From IMG/VR virus record IMGVR_UViG_3300031951_000839, positions 1 through 30,434 of that record: 30,434 nucleotides of DNA; one strand, given 5' to 3'. The translations under genes and the position numbers were made by a program. Shown here piece after piece: positions 371 to 5,757 of this stretch; position 1 is the first letter of the stretch, and each line of letters opens with the position of its first letter. Source of the stretch: a virus. The notes under the pieces were generated by a model, which saw only the letters and a list, made by a program, of their open reading frames with translations, searched no databases and was not told the origin of the DNA.

Positions 371-404
371 GGGAAAGGGGGCTCTCGGGTCCCCTTTCTT
401 TTTA
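371..404 (+). terminator. Rho-independent terminator of gene 32
   Basis: Six bases after the gp32 stop, AAAGGGG (374-380) can pair with CCCCTTT (391-397) around a 10-base loop, and the stem is followed by CTTTTT. This is a standard intrinsic terminator for + strand transcription. On the minus strand the same hairpin is followed by CCCACC rather than a U run, so it should stop the opposing tail operon poorly. The T run overlaps the stop codon (402-404) of the converging minus-strand gene. Confidence 0.85.
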
Positions 405-2057
405 TCTAGCTACTTTAATTGGTGCGTTTGTTTCTTTATATCCAAAACGGCTTAGATAGTATTGCACACTATTTCTGTCAATCATTGTAGGTGCATTTTG
501 TACAGCAGTCGAACCAGCCGCGCTGATATTCGGTGGAGATACTGTCAAACGCGGTGCAGGTTTGTTTGCATCGCTTTTTATTTTAGCAATTTCTGCAGTT
601 TGTACAGCCGCTTCATTTGAAATGAGTTTTGCAAAATCAGGAGCGGCGGTTGTAAGATCGCGAGCAACCCCAGGTCCGACAACCTTTCCGCCAATAGTAC
701 CAATAAATTCTGCCATGTTTGTAAGAGTTTTATCGACAACCTCGCCGCCTTTATTCACAACTCTTTCAGCCACCGATTGCCTAGCAGTAACTTCTCCTTG
801 TTCAGGAGAAAGACCCTTTCCGCCGAACTGAAAGTGGCCACCATGAGTGCCTTTATATTTGTTTTCTACCCACCCATACTTAGCACCGTGCTTTTTTATC
901 CAAGCGTTTGATTCACCATGAATGTCCATAGCAAGGCCACTTAAATGAAGTGATCTTGTCGCAGGATTATAACCCTGCTTTTTCATTTCTTCTTGATACG
1001 CACGCGTTCTTTTACTGCTCGTAACGTCGCTCGGCTTTACCACGCCATTCGAATCTATCATCATCTTATAAAAAGCTTCAGCGCCTTCTTTAGTGAATAC
1101 TACAGGACGCCCTCTTTGATCGTTGGCGCCAGCAATACCCCATCCTTCTCCAGTAGAAGGATGGCTAACTTTAATCACTTTACTTGAAGGCGACTTTGCC
1201 GCTGATTCCTGTTGTCCAGACTGGGCACTTGGTGCTGATTTCCCGCCCGCCCAACTTGGTGCATTTCGTTCCCACCAACTTCTATCATCTTTTACTTGCT
1301 TAGAACTTGTAGCTGGTTTAGATTCTTGGGTCGGACCTGCTGTTACAACCGGTTTCTTATAATCACCCGCTTCAGCTTGGCCTCTCAGCGATCCGGCTGG
1401 TTTAGCAGGCGGCGGAATCGGTTTTGCATCAACGGGAGCCGGTGGAGGTGGTGGAGGGTTCGTAACACCGGCTTCCGCTTGACCTCTGAGAGTTCCGGCA
1501 GGTAATGCTGTTGGAAGCGCCGTGGTTTCTATTGATTCTTCTTCTGGTTCGTCTGGCAAAAAACCATTAAAAAACGAGGTAATCTCTTTTACAGTGTCTG
1601 AAATGAACGTCCCGGCTTCAACAGTAAAATCTACAACACCTTTAATTGCGTTCATAATAGGATCATATGCCAACAAACCAATACCTGCAAGCGCCAGAAA
1701 TCCAAGTCCGCCTTCTTCTGAGCCGTGAACTTTTTCTGCGTCTTTGAGTTTTTCTAATCGGCTTTGTCGCTCTATTCTATCTTCTTGCTCATTCAATTTA
1801 TTATTTTGATATGCAATTTTTTGATTAGTTAGCTTTTGTTTAAACAAGTTGTCCATTATAGAAAGTTGATCTATAACGGCAACTAGTTTTTTAGAGTTTA
1901 ATTCTGTTTTTTGATAAGAAACTGCATCGTCGTTGGCTGCAATTGGTTTTGCAGCTCTTTTAATATCACTTTCATTAAGTAAAACAGAACCAACGATGCC
2001 AAAAGATTTAGCCGTGTTGGTTGTGTCGATGGCAGTGATAAGAACCTTTAATGCCAT
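402..2057 (-). CDS. Virion-associated M15-type peptidase (D,D/L,D-peptidase-like) with coiled-coil N-terminus
   Basis: A 551-residue protein. Residues 55-110 are highly charged and look like a coiled coil. Residues 115-131 are hydrophobic (GGLGFLALAGIGLLAYD). Residues 180-300 are a Pro/Ala/Ser-rich linker holding two copies of PAG-[T/S]-LRGQAEAG (187-197 and 221-231). Residues about 300-412 form an M15 (VanY/Peptidase_M15_3-like) domain: SLHLSGLAMD gives the SxHxxGxAxD signature with H371 and D378, and HGGHFQF supplies the likely third zinc ligand H408. Such enzymes cut peptide cross-links of peptidoglycan. Residues 444-485 match a segment of the neighbouring muramidase protein closely (AEFIGT-[I/L]-GGK and PDFAKLIS). 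The start ATG overlaps the upstream stop (TAATG). It is the last gene of the minus-strand operon. The likely role is local cell-wall digestion during DNA injection, carried in the tail; a free endolysin is less likely given the linker, coiled coil and position. Confidence 0.8.
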   Translation of the reverse strand: MALKVLITAIDTTNTAKSFGIVGSVLLNESDIKRAAKPIAANDDAVSYQKTELNSKKLVAVIDQLSIMDNLFKQKLTNQKIAYQNNKLNEQEDRIERQSRLEKLKDAEKVHGSEEGGLGFLALAGIGLLAYDPIMNAIKGVVDFTVEAGTFISDTVKEITSFFNGFLPDEPEEESIETTALPTALPAGTLRGQAEAGVTNPPPPPPAPVDAKPIPPPAKPAGSLRGQAEAGDYKKPVVTAGPTQESKPATSSKQVKDDRSWWERNAPSWAGGKSAPSAQSGQQESAAKSPSSKVIKVSHPSTGEGWGIAGANDQRGRPVVFTKEGAEAFYKMMIDSNGVVKPSDVTSSKRTRAYQEEMKKQGYNPATRSLHLSGLAMDIHGESNAWIKKHGAKYGWVENKYKGTHGGHFQFGGKGLSPEQGEVTARQSVAERVVNKGGEVVDKTLTNMAEFIGTIGGKVVGPGVARDLTTAAPDFAKLISNEAAVQTAEIAKIKSDANKPAPRLTVSPPNISAAGSTAVQNAPTMIDRNSVQYYLSRFGYKETNAPIKVAR

Positions 2058-3883
2058 TATGATGCCAGTCTATAGTGCCCGAGATATTTTTCAATCCCGC
2101 CAGTACCAGGATAGTTTGGATCAACAACAGAAATAGATCCGTTTGGAGAAATAGACTTTAAAGCACGAGCAGCCGGCGGTATATTGGCAGCTGCGGTGTT
2201 AGTCTTTTTCTCACCCATCGCAATTTGATTTTGAATTTTACTAGACTCTTCAGAAATGAGTTTTGCAAAATCTGGTCCGGTTGTAGTAAGATTTCTTACT
2301 TTCCCTGGGCCTAAGATTTTCCCGCCAAGAGTTCCAATAAACTCGGCGACGCTTGTTAACATTTTATCGGCAGCATCTGCAGCAGTATCAGCAGCTTGTT
2401 GTAATGGACTATCAGATGAAGCAGCTGGACTCATTGGAACACTATTAGTTCCTTTAAGAGTTCCTTCCTTTTTCAGGATATCCATTCTTGCTTCTTCAAA
2501 AGAACGAGGATCGGATCTTTGTCCTGTACCTCCATATGACGGAATATAGTAAGCCCATTGCTTATTTAGAGTACCTGCTTTATTGGCTTGATCATAAATC
2601 GCCTTAGCAGCTTTATCTTGTGTTGCCGCATTAAAAGTATCAGTTAATTTAACTACGCCTTGATCAACCAGACCTTGTAGTGTTTTTGACACAATTTGAT
2701 AAGCGCCCATGGCACTAGAATTCATACTTCCAGAATTAGGAATTAAAACGTTTCTTCCGAACCATAATGCCTCGGCAACAGTAAGTTGTGATAGCTTTCT
2801 ACCATTGAAGTAGTCTTCTGGTTTTCCAAATTTGCCATAACCCAATACGACATCGTATGGCGACTGGCCAGCTGTAGAGGCTGATTGAGTTCCTGATGGA
2901 GTAGGTGCAGCAACTTGTTGTCCTCCCTTTAACTCTTCAGCCATCTTAGATGGTTCATAGGCCCCAGGATCTGCTTGTATTCTTTTTGTTGCTTCAACAG
3001 CAGCGGCGTTTCTTTTATCGCCAGGACCATACGCATTTAAAATATCTTGGTATTTTGAAGGAAGCGCGTTTGGTTTATATGTTTTGCCATCGGGAAGAGT
3101 ATAGCCTGTAGTCCATCTGCCAGATTCATCAAGAACCGGTTTCATGCCATACATCTGTTCCAATTCTTTTCTTGCCTGCAACGGTTCCATCGCAGTATTT
3201 TTCATGAACTTGTCAACACCCCACACAATAGCACCAGCCGCGGCCAGCGCAGCGGCAATTGGTCCGATCGGAAGTGCTCGTGCAAGTCCTAATAAACTCT
3301 TTATATTCTTTAAGAAAGAAATTCCTCGTAGCCATTTCCAGGCTGAAGAAAACGCTTCAAAGGCTGTGACCAACCCCTTGAGTAATGCATCTAGTCCTAA
3401 TTTTCCAAGACTGCCAAGCGCACTTAGAATACCGGCTACGATGCCGCCACCGGGTTTTTGGTTATCGTTTGCTGCACCGTATCGCTTTCCAAGTTCTTCG
3501 AACGTACTGTTTTGTTCAACTTTTGCTTCTCTGGCAGCAAGAGCATTTTCTTCATATACTCTTCTGTCAAAGTCAATTTGCTTCTTTAGAGTACCGTTGA
3601 TTGATACTAAATACTTCACAACATCGGTCAGAAGCTTTTCAGTATCATTCGTTTTTGCTTTGTACGTGCTTTTAGCCTGAGCCGCTGGTAGTGTTCCAGA
3701 CCCGGAAACCCGCTGTTTGGCGGCGGTACCGGCCAATCCGAAACTAGCATAAATTACATTCGAGTTTTCTTGGCTTATCTTATCTTTTGAAGAGAGCATA
3801 GCAGAAACACCCGACGCCAGGCCAGTTACTGCTTTAGATCCGCCTGTAAGAGCACCTTGTACGGCGTCTAATAATCCTGCCAT
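2057..3883 (-). CDS. Tail protein with muramidase-like domain; tape-measure candidate
   Basis: A 608-residue protein. The N-terminus (1-60) is Gly/Ala/Ser-rich and residues 80-125 are charged and helical. Residues 146-226 carry hydrophobic helices (GIVAGILSALGSLGKLGLDALL; LPIGPIAAALAAAGAIVWG), typical of tape-measure or membrane-active tail proteins. Residues about 341-475 resemble lambda-endolysin-like (GH104-type) muramidases: SPYDVVLGYGKF, then SSAMGAYQI (389-397) matching the S-x-A-x-G-x-YQ core. The usual catalytic Glu just before the YDV motif is absent; E371 (LTVAEALWF) is an alternative, so activity is unproven. Residues 508-550 repeat the segment shared with the adjacent M15 protein. 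It follows the gp26/gp51-like pair directly, where tape measures sit in many tailed phages; T4 gp29 (590 residues) is close in length. TAATG overlaps join it to both neighbours. I infer a tape measure or hub protein with a wall-cutting domain. Confidence 0.72.
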   Translation of the reverse strand: MAGLLDAVQGALTGGSKAVTGLASGVSAMLSSKDKISQENSNVIYASFGLAGTAAKQRVSGSGTLPAAQAKSTYKAKTNDTEKLLTDVVKYLVSINGTLKKQIDFDRRVYEENALAAREAKVEQNSTFEELGKRYGAANDNQKPGGGIVAGILSALGSLGKLGLDALLKGLVTAFEAFSSAWKWLRGISFLKNIKSLLGLARALPIGPIAAALAAAGAIVWGVDKFMKNTAMEPLQARKELEQMYGMKPVLDESGRWTTGYTLPDGKTYKPNALPSKYQDILNAYGPGDKRNAAAVEATKRIQADPGAYEPSKMAEELKGGQQVAAPTPSGTQSASTAGQSPYDVVLGYGKFGKPEDYFNGRKLSQLTVAEALWFGRNVLIPNSGSMNSSAMGAYQIVSKTLQGLVDQGVVKLTDTFNAATQDKAAKAIYDQANKAGTLNKQWAYYIPSYGGTGQRSDPRSFEEARMDILKKEGTLKGTNSVPMSPAASSDSPLQQAADTAADAADKMLTSVAEFIGTLGGKILGPGKVRNLTTTGPDFAKLISEESSKIQNQIAMGEKKTNTAAANIPPAARALKSISPNGSISVVDPNYPGTGGIEKYLGHYRLAS

Positions 3884-4065
3884 TACTTCTTTCTACTCTC
3901 TATTTCTTGTCTCTGCTTATCTAAAAATTCCATGAGCATATCGACATAAAGATCTCTTTCATAAGGAATCAAATTTTCAATCTCTGTAATAGAATATTTA
4001 TGATGCTGAGCCAGAGAAAATACCATCGAGTAGTATCTTGCTAGGTTTGTATGGCTCAGCCCCAC
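3883..4065 (-). CDS. Small tail-assembly protein at the gp51 position; likely -1 frameshift extension of the gp26-like gene
   Basis: This frame encodes 60 residues if begun at the GTG at 4065-4063; no ATG is available at the overlap. It is charged and probably helical (LARYYSMVFSLAQHHKYS; LIPYERDLYVDMLMEFLDKQRQEIESRKK). It overlaps the end of the gp26-like gene by 10 bases and its stop forms TAATG with the next start. It occupies the place of gene 51 in T4 (order 26-51), though T4 gp51 is much longer (about 250 residues). Two readings are possible. In one, it is the C-terminal extension made by a -1 ribosomal shift on T-TTT-TTT at 4074-4068, giving a fusion of about 293 residues. In the other, it starts on its own from GTG, helped by AAGGA at 4079-4075. 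The downstream 9-bp stem favours the shift. Confidence 0.75.
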   Translation of the reverse strand: MGLSHTNLARYYSMVFSLAQHHKYSITEIENLIPYERDLYVDMLMEFLDKQRQEIESRKK

Positions 4066-4074
4066 ATAAAAAAA
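4005..4074 (-). promoter_or_regulatory. Candidate programmed -1 ribosomal frameshift signal (slippery heptamer plus stem)
   Basis: Read on the minus strand, the gp26-like frame ends GAT TTT TTT ATG TGG GGC TGA. The run T-TTT-TTT (4074-4068) fits the X-XXY-YYZ slippery rule in the correct phase. Seven bases later, GCTGAGCCA (4060-4052) is perfectly complementary to TGGCTCAGC (4013-4005), a 9-bp stem with a 38-base loop. After a -1 shift the next codons are TAT GTG GGG CTG, which run straight into the downstream 60-residue frame. Heptamer phase, spacer length, stem and joined frame together match tail-chaperone frameshift sites such as lambda G/T and P2 E/E'. AAGGA just upstream could also act as a ribosome-binding site. 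Confidence 0.7.
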
Positions 4075-4763
4075 TCCTTGAGATTTGTTAACTCAATCTC
4101 CCTATCATTCCCTAGGGAATTTTTATACTTGATAGTGTGATGAAGTCTTGGAATGCTTTCAAAGAACTTTCTGATCTTTTCAAACGTCGAGACGTCCAAG
4201 TTATCTAGGAACTCAGAAATTTCTTTCTCTGAATAATCTGTTGCTGGATATACATTGTCCGCGTCGTAGATCACGTCGATGCAATTGACAATGAAGAAGG
4301 TCATGAGCTCTACCTCGTTTGTGATATTGCCCATTTTATCGGTGATGTCTGCAGTAGGGTACCGCATCATCATTCCTACGTCATCATTAATTTCAATCTT
4401 AGAATTTACTTGATCTGGCATACTTACTTCTACATCATCCAGATTTAATTCAAAATCATAAATCTTTTCGTCTTCAGTATCTTTATAAGATAGCTTGATG
4501 ATGTTATTCACCGATCGCGATCTCAACTTTAAGAACAAATATTCTAAGTCAAAGATAGCAAGATTATCGATATTCACTTCACTCTGAATACAGTTTCCAA
4601 GAATTTGCTTGATTGCCCTAATAATTTCAGAATCGTTTCCACTCTGCTGAGCAACCAGCAAGATTTTCTCTTCCTTTACTAGGAATGGTCTAAACATAAC
4701 TTTTTGCTGAGTCGAAGGAATTACAGCATCAAAAAGAGGTTGATCAATTTTTGGCAAAGTCAT
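4056..4763 (-). CDS. 26: gp26-type baseplate hub assembly protein (tail-assembly chaperone-like)
   Basis: A 235-residue protein, close to T4 gp26 (208). Its start (MTLPKIDQPLFDAVIPSTQQKVMFRPFLVKEEKILLVAQQS) has the features of the T4_baseplate family: a short N-terminal strand set with FRPFLVKEEKILL, then an ILGNCI segment and a long acidic C-terminal half. In T4, gp26 is needed to assemble the hub but is not found in the solved baseplate structure, which suits a chaperone. GGAG about 11 bases before the ATG (4763-4761) is the ribosome-binding site. It lies directly before the small frame and the tape-measure candidate, as G/GT chaperones do. Its last codons form a slippery run that may send a fraction of ribosomes into the next frame. 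The family call is by recognition of the N-terminal half; the C-terminal half is less distinctive. Confidence 0.8.
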   Translation of the reverse strand: MTLPKIDQPLFDAVIPSTQQKVMFRPFLVKEEKILLVAQQSGNDSEIIRAIKQILGNCIQSEVNIDNLAIFDLEYLFLKLRSRSVNNIIKLSYKDTEDEKIYDFELNLDDVEVSMPDQVNSKIEINDDVGMMMRYPTADITDKMGNITNEVELMTFFIVNCIDVIYDADNVYPATDYSEKEISEFLDNLDVSTFEKIRKFFESIPRLHHTIKYKNSLGNDREIELTNLKDFFMWG

Positions 4764-4782: not shown

Positions 4783-5757
4783 TTAAATTTCAGTTCCACT
4801 AAGATTTTTAGTAGTTATTGTTCCGGTTAAATTGCTTGCGCCTGTAGATTTTTGTGCTCGGTTGTTTATAGCGTCTGGTGAAGTTGCTCCTATAGAATTT
4901 TGAGGATTCAATCCAACACGGCGACTATAGTCTTTTTTGTTTTTCTTTTGCTTTTGTTTTTCTGCAGCTGATGCAGCTGCGTCGGCTGCAGCTTGTGCTT
5001 CAAGGACTGTTTCTAGTTTTCCGTTTAGTGCTCGCGGAGTAAGTGTCGTCATATTAGTAAATGCAAATGTCACAGTAAGCTTTTGTACTTCGTTTTCTTG
5101 TGTCCAAGCCAAATTTTGAGATTGAATATTCATTGGAAACACATCATAAAGAATATACTCAGTAACCGTATTTAACTCACGATCATAAACTCTAATACGT
5201 ACGTTAGGACAAGTATATTCGTCCTTGTATCCTACTTCATAGCCAAGGTAGTTGTTTAATCCTGGGCGATCACTTACATTTTTTAAACTGCTAATTCCGG
5301 AAGTTTCATACAATACAATTGTATTCATCCACTGATGGAAGAAGTCAATTAGTTCGGATCTTTTATCGACTAGCCAAGTAAGAGTCAAATCGTTAAACTG
5401 CATTCCATACGGAACTTTTTCTACTGGGCCATATCCATATCGTCTAATGTTTTCTTCTTCTAAAACTTGTATGGTCGGAAGTATAACAGATTCACAACGG
5501 AAAATTAACTTATTAGAATTATACCTTACAAATTCTGATAGTGGAGCATTTGCTTCAGACCCCAGTCTGAACGGAGCAAATGTCACCAGATAACTGTGTG
5601 ACGGCAAAACTTCGTTTTTATTCAGTTCTGATCTAAAATTGGCGATGTTGAAGCTTTTTCTTCCGCCAGTAACGAGGATCTCGTCTTCTAGGACAAACGG
5701 ATCAGTTCTAAACTCGGCTGTAGCTTTTGTTTCTTCGTTCTGTGGTGCCTCAGACAT
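4783..5757 (-). CDS. 54: Tail-tube-fold protein, probably gp54-type baseplate tail tube initiator
   Basis: A 324-residue protein, almost the length of T4 gp54 (320). The central part shows the order of tail-tube-like proteins: SHSYLVTFAPF (about 53-63), LIFRCESVILPTIQVLEEENIRRYGYGPVEKVPYG (about 84-118), DLTLTWLVD then FFHQWMNTIV (about 122-148), VRIRVYDRELNTVTEYILYDVFPMNIQSQNLAW and VQKLTVTFAF. The strand, helix and strand-pair layout is that of gp19/gp48/gp54. In T4, gp54 sits on the hub and nucleates tube polymerisation, with gp48 as its partner; a gp48 homologue opens the opposite operon here. The C-terminal 80 residues are an Ala-rich, Lys-rich low-complexity tail (AAADAAASAAEKQKQKKNKK) that T4 gp54, as I recall it, lacks. 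The start ATG overlaps the upstream stop (TAATG). Assignment to gp54 and not another tube-fold protein is an inference from size and partner genes. Confidence 0.65.
   Translation of the reverse strand: MSEAPQNEETKATAEFRTDPFVLEDEILVTGGRKSFNIANFRSELNKNEVLPSHSYLVTFAPFRLGSEANAPLSEFVRYNSNKLIFRCESVILPTIQVLEEENIRRYGYGPVEKVPYGMQFNDLTLTWLVDKRSELIDFFHQWMNTIVLYETSGISSLKNVSDRPGLNNYLGYEVGYKDEYTCPNVRIRVYDRELNTVTEYILYDVFPMNIQSQNLAWTQENEVQKLTVTFAFTNMTTLTPRALNGKLETVLEAQAAADAAASAAEKQKQKKNKKDYSRRVGLNPQNSIGATSPDAINNRAQKSTGASNLTGTITTKNLSGTEI

Follow-up and report, generated by a model that had tools for sequence, protein, structure and literature searches.

The stretch of DNA analysed here (the window) is a virus record of 30,434 bases on a single contig, and the features of interest lie together on its minus strand (Table 1). 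At its centre is a gp26-type reading frame, which belongs to PF12322 (T4_baseplate, 5.5e-58), its sole Pfam match at E<=1, and to phrog_150, baseplate hub of gp26 type (1.4e-62). The closest isolates match it at no more than about 43% and include cyanophages, Caulobacter phage Cr30, Stenotrophomonas phage DLP_6 and Sinorhizobium phage phiM12, among others. The end of this frame is overlapped by a 60-residue frame that matches phrog_634, baseplate hub assembly catalyst of gp51 type (1.9e-21). On the upstream side, the gp19-like protein also matches PF06841 at 1.9e-6, slightly short of the Pfam cut-off. On the downstream side, the 608-residue candidate has no Pfam match above cut-off, and the gene in the same position in Cr30 and phiM12 is annotated as, or has been likened to, a tape measure. 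An earlier note on this DNA had placed the pair just before the tape-measure candidate, and indeed the gp51 stop overlaps the candidate's ATG (TAATG at 3883), while in some relatives a small ORF intervenes between the gp51 domain and the tape-measure gene. The candidate (2057-3883, minus strand) and the protein of the adjacent gene (402-2057, minus strand) have about 110 C-terminal residues in common (BLASTP 1e-17); the former carries a weak endolysin-type match (phrog_90, 2.3e-7) and the latter a weak DUF5715/MepK-like peptidase segment. An NCBIfam search gave no useful match.

Table 1. Features of the gp26-gp51 junction and its neighbourhood in the window
Feature	Position	Strand	Basis
gp19-like tail tube protein, upstream of gp26	4783..5757	-	phrog_45 tail tube, 2.3e-34
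gp26-type ORF, 235 aa, zero frame, short form (TAC-N-like)	4056..4763	-	PF12322, phrog_150, predicted fold
Slippery heptamer T TTT TTT, gp26 phase	4068..4074	-	read directly; T-TTT-TTN in 196/209 relatives
-1-frame segment (YVGLSH...), 60-aa 'gp51' domain	3883..4068	-	phrog_634; T4 gp51 C-terminus
Spacer ATGTGGG, 7 nt	4061..4067	-	read directly
Predicted stimulatory stem, 5' arm GCTGAGCCA	4052..4060	-	pairing kept in window cluster
Predicted stimulatory stem, 3' arm TGGCTCAGC	4005..4013	-	pairing kept in window cluster
608-aa tape-measure candidate, directly downstream	2057..3883	-	position; annotation of relatives

At the junction itself, a slippery heptamer in the gp26 phase is followed by a short spacer and by two arms, GCTGAGCCA and TGGCTCAGC, which are perfectly complementary over 9 bp and enclose a 38-nt loop. 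A -1 shift at the heptamer yields a gp26-gp51 fusion of 293 residues with the junction ...KDFF-YVGLSH... Heptamer, phase, spacer, stem, loop and fusion length had all been proposed from the letters alone, and every one of them agrees with the sequence base for base. The same is true of the statement that the 60-residue frame has only a GTG start within the overlap, the earliest start codon of that frame being the GTG at 4065.

To place this junction among its relatives, we drew on IMG/VR and on annotated phages, choosing sequences in which a gp51 domain follows gp26 in another frame; the copy of the window itself (L001) and repeated contigs were dropped as identical junctions, and 209 distinct junctions were retained. 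The gp51 domain lies in the -1 frame in 209/209, and in the +1 frame in 0/209. The heptamer T-TTT-TTN, whose conservation in related phages the earlier note had proposed to examine, is retained in 196 of the 209, and when the junctions are grouped into 35 clusters at 60% protein identity it is found in every member of 32 clusters and in no member of the other 3. The codon before it may be GAT, AGT, TCT, AAT or GCT, encoding Asp, Ser, Asn or Ala, and always ends in T. Given the amino acids and the codon usage of the family, a T in the third position of this preceding codon together with TTT as the first Phe codon in 32/32 representatives has a log10 P of about -13.5, a figure that serves as a guide only because the cluster representatives share ancestry. 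The frameshift junction of the window is not a product of chance. One of the 196 sequences, L041, carries a TAG nonsense codon roughly 7 codons upstream of its slip site; its gp26 is intact apart from this, and the sequence is either a mutant or an assembly error.

The 13 exceptions comprise the Ackermannviridae (L173, L340, L341, L344 and others) and L333, which keep the -1 frame and have RTT-TTC at the slip site. The folding analysis described below gave no downstream structure signal at their junctions, and they possibly use a different slip mechanism. The sole oddity with respect to frame is Bacillus phage SP-15 (L381:1465-2238, plus strand), where GAA TTT TTT CAC is followed by a gp51-like segment, GMTWEATESMAIFERKEMYSRLLL, in the +1/-2 frame; the ribosome may shift here by +1 or by -2, or the six-T run may contain a homopolymer or sequencing error.

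Structure downstream of the heptamer is predicted in the window and in other clades. The 60 nt containing the window stem fold with a z of -4.1 against dinucleotide shuffles. For the comparison across clades, one representative per cluster was folded over the region 12-72 nt past the first base of the heptamer. The mean z there was -1.66, and half of the clusters scored under -2; the same calculation at 13 other offsets gave means from -0.59 to +0.20 (one-sided Wilcoxon p of 0.013 to 3e-6 against the slip-site region), so that the predicted structure peaks only at the slip site. The stems vary in sequence from clade to clade and yet share their location, as illustrated by a 14-bp stem in S-PM2. 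Within the window cluster (46 unique junctions), 95% of stem cells are paired, versus 20-34% if the partner arm is displaced by 1-3 bases. The compensatory stem changes that the earlier note had proposed to look for are weak within the window clade and come down to one pair, 9-62, which changes from C-G to T-A in three sequences of the window cluster and is C-A in six; what does hold is that unrelated stems recur at the same place in other clades. A stimulatory RNA structure is not needed in every known frameshifted tail assembly chaperone (TAC).

The correspondence with T4 genes 26 and 51 suggested in the earlier note is supported. Both T4 gp26 and T4 gp51 belong to PF12322 (8.8e-64 and 3.9e-52), and the extra domain that the window encodes in the -1 frame is found in T4 on gp51 alone, in frame and C-terminal (phrog_634, 1.2e-23). 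By sequence, T4 gp26 and gp51 are paralogues, gp26 corresponding to the short form and gp51 to the long form; T4 therefore has two genes where the cyanophages, Aeh1, KVP40 and the window have one gene and a predicted shift. Genome-wide counts of PF12322 fall along the same line, with a single copy in Kyanoviridae members, Cr30, DLP_6, phiM12, Melnitz, Astolliot, Aeh1, KVP40, K567 and Marshall, and two copies in T4, RB49, RB43, 44RR and 133. T4 gp26 even retains the residues 'EFF' at this point, although their codons, GAG TTC TTT, are no longer slippery. In a tree of the family the long copies group together (100/99), as do the frameshift-type proteins (95/97), on long branches; the tree is unrooted and thus does not give the direction of change.

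Two further observations concern phages with a separate long gene. The Campylobacter phages CP220 (L382, L386) and CP21 (L383, L385) each have two PF12322 genes, one short and one long, lying far apart, the gp51 domain of the long gene being in frame in CP220 and broken in CP21. The CP220 copies fall away from the T4-type ones on very long branches, and this pair is perhaps a duplication independent of that in T4. In L370:2001-2746 (plus strand) and in Acinetobacter phage ZZ1 (L384, L387), a frame change interrupts the long gp51-type gene part-way along, in both cases probably through a sequencing error.

The predicted fold points to the tail assembly chaperones. The AF2 model of the window gp26 has a pLDDT of 86.9, and VIA-align matches its residues 1-95 to 3fgx, 2ob9 and 3klu with Z scores of 7.6, 7.3 and 7.0, with 84-85 residues aligned, an rmsd of 4.1-4.3 and 9-11% identity. 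The same three structures have also been grouped as tail assembly chaperones elsewhere (PMC9603447). On its own a Z of 7 to 8 between a model and a structure is suggestive rather than decisive; the match is made stronger because precisely the known chaperones top the list, followed by 5ir0 at Z 5.0 and by the remainder at 2.9 or less. With Foldseek against the PDB, the HK97 TAC stands at rank 3 with an E of about 1, which is not significant, and a sequence search of the window gp26 against the PDB returned no significant relative. The model of a T4-type in-frame long form (L362; pLDDT 91.9) keeps this order of elements and adds three helices at the C-terminus, and a VIA search of this long-form model against the PDB gave no TAC match.

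How far the protein should be regarded as a chaperone at all is the point at which an alternative survives best. Most records annotate gp26 as baseplate hub, and the older genetics had assigned it to the hub as well (PMC3004832), so gp26 might be a structural hub protein and the fusion a minor hub variant. The same review, however, lists T4 gp26 and gp51 as hub assembly chaperones, with gp51 required and yet absent from the particle (PMC3004832). A chaperone would also fit the gene order before the tape measure, the short and long pair and the TAC-like fold, and TAC genes of T4-like phages have been identified by Vladimirov et al. (2022), as later papers cite that work. We consider a structural role unlikely.

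Somewhat less likely still is that gp51 is made separately, by reinitiation at GTG 4065 once a ribosome has ended gp26 at the nearby TGA. This GTG falls within the overlap and precedes the gp26 TGA by 7 nt, an AAGGA stands 9 nt upstream of the GTG, and several cyanophage records annotate a separate gp51. In close relatives, however, AAGGA, the possible weak start site in the window, is replaced by AAAGA; in 23/35 clusters the majority of members lack an ATG, GTG or TTG around the slip site; and only 3/209 junctions, the window among them, have an SD-like motif. The pattern that the earlier note had set against its own claim, relatives with both frames but no heptamer and with a strong start for the small gene, is not what the junctions show, 196 of 209 of them keeping T-TTT-TTN. 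A separate start would in addition leave unexplained the conserved heptamer, the RNA structure peak and the in-frame long form of T4. As neither starts nor SD sites are conserved, an independent gp51 start is rejected as the main route.

A third alternative attributes the fusion to slippage of RNA polymerase on the T run rather than of the ribosome. The window has a run of seven T, and L352-L354 have about nine. Polymerase slippage usually needs longer runs, and most clusters have six T followed by C, in a fixed phase and with RNA structure downstream, an arrangement that fits ribosomal slippage; we regard polymerase slippage as improbable. Finally, homopolymer runs are prone to error, but a misassembled or misread T run as the source of the frame change is rejected as negligible, since the frame relation is identical across all 209 distinct junctions, which come from many independent contigs and isolates.

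We therefore consider it very probable that genes 26 and '51' of the window form a single tail-assembly-chaperone gene that gives two products through -1 slippage. The earlier note had read the two frames as a G/GT-like tail chaperone that depends on -1 frameshifting, and this is supported by the frame, the heptamer and the stem, by their conservation, and by the homology, synteny and predicted fold. Slippage in cells, its efficiency and the chaperone function of the window protein are what we infer. Most ribosomes would end at the gp26 stop and release the short form, whereas a minority, aided by the downstream stem, would slip back one base on T-TTT-TTT and produce a long form that includes the gp51 domain. 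If the analogy with the lambda gpG/gpGT model, summarised in PMC5009743, applies, the common N-terminal part would coat the tape-measure protein of the adjacent gene, and the extra gp51 domain would recruit tail tube subunits. In T4 and several relatives, the same two proteins come from two paralogous genes.

More tentatively, the single gene with a frameshift may be the ancestral state. Gene duplication would then have replaced it at least twice, once in T4-type Straboviridae and independently in Campylobacter phages, and the slip mechanism would have changed in Ackermannviridae and perhaps in SP-15; we consider this history possible, at somewhat less than even odds. If it were true, the family would be a natural experiment on keeping or replacing a protein ratio set by a frameshift. 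The family contains both solutions, the frameshift type in Aeh1 and KVP40 and the two-gene type in T4, RB49 and others, which makes it directly testable why phages retain the frameshift.

The earlier note knew of no description of such a shift for T4-like phages, but one had been published. Vladimirov, Gautam and Davidson (Virology 566:9-15, 2022) are cited as having identified the tail assembly chaperones of T4-like phages. The Adele paper (PMC12846349) cites them for poly-T -1 signals in the TAC-N genes, and the PRFect paper (PMC10885494) for T4-like phages that, in place of frameshifting, have one short and one longer, fused gene. On the strength of that work as cited, a frameshifted T4-like chaperone is already a known kind; the survey across lineages, the peak in predicted structure, the Aeh1 domain that had gone unnoticed and the exceptions may be what is additional here. 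Sullivan et al. (2010; PMC3037559) described gp51 as short in cyanophages and a vibriophage and as absent in Aeh1, and invoked no frameshift. We find the gp51 domain of Aeh1 present and unannotated at L171:3683-3889 (plus strand), in the -1 frame after T-TTT-TTC, and the 200 residues at issue in that study would be provided by gp26 via the shift. In many public T4-like genomes the two frames are listed as separate hub proteins, for which one frameshifted gene would be the better annotation.

Compared with known systems, the window shares with the lambda G/GT type a conserved overlapping -1 frame, an in-phase heptamer, a predicted downstream structure, a place before the tape-measure candidate and a TAC-like predicted N-terminal fold. 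It differs from lambda gpG/gpGT and P2 E/E' in its heptamer, which is GGGAAAG in lambda and TTTTTTG in P2, and in that the window gp26 has no sequence match to the Phage_TAC Pfam families; as judged from sequence, it is outside the lambda G family, though it would work like a member. To HK97 gp13 (2ob9), YqbN (3klu) and RBSTP2171 (3fgx) the likeness is that of predicted fold over residues 1-95, whereas identity is low and about 140 further gp26 residues lie outside the match. The Adele-type TACs of Vandenendeviridae and Andersonviridae (PMC12846349) have in common with the window family a poly-T slip site that ends TAC-N, a conserved open -1 frame and a place before the tape measure, and are distinguished by a GTTTTT motif instead of T-TTT-TTN. 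Closest of kin in sequence to this pair, T4 gp26 and gp51 share its PF12322 family and its short and long forms, the long form being the short one plus a gp51 domain, and differ in that T4 uses two genes for what the window appears to achieve with one gene and a -1 shift.
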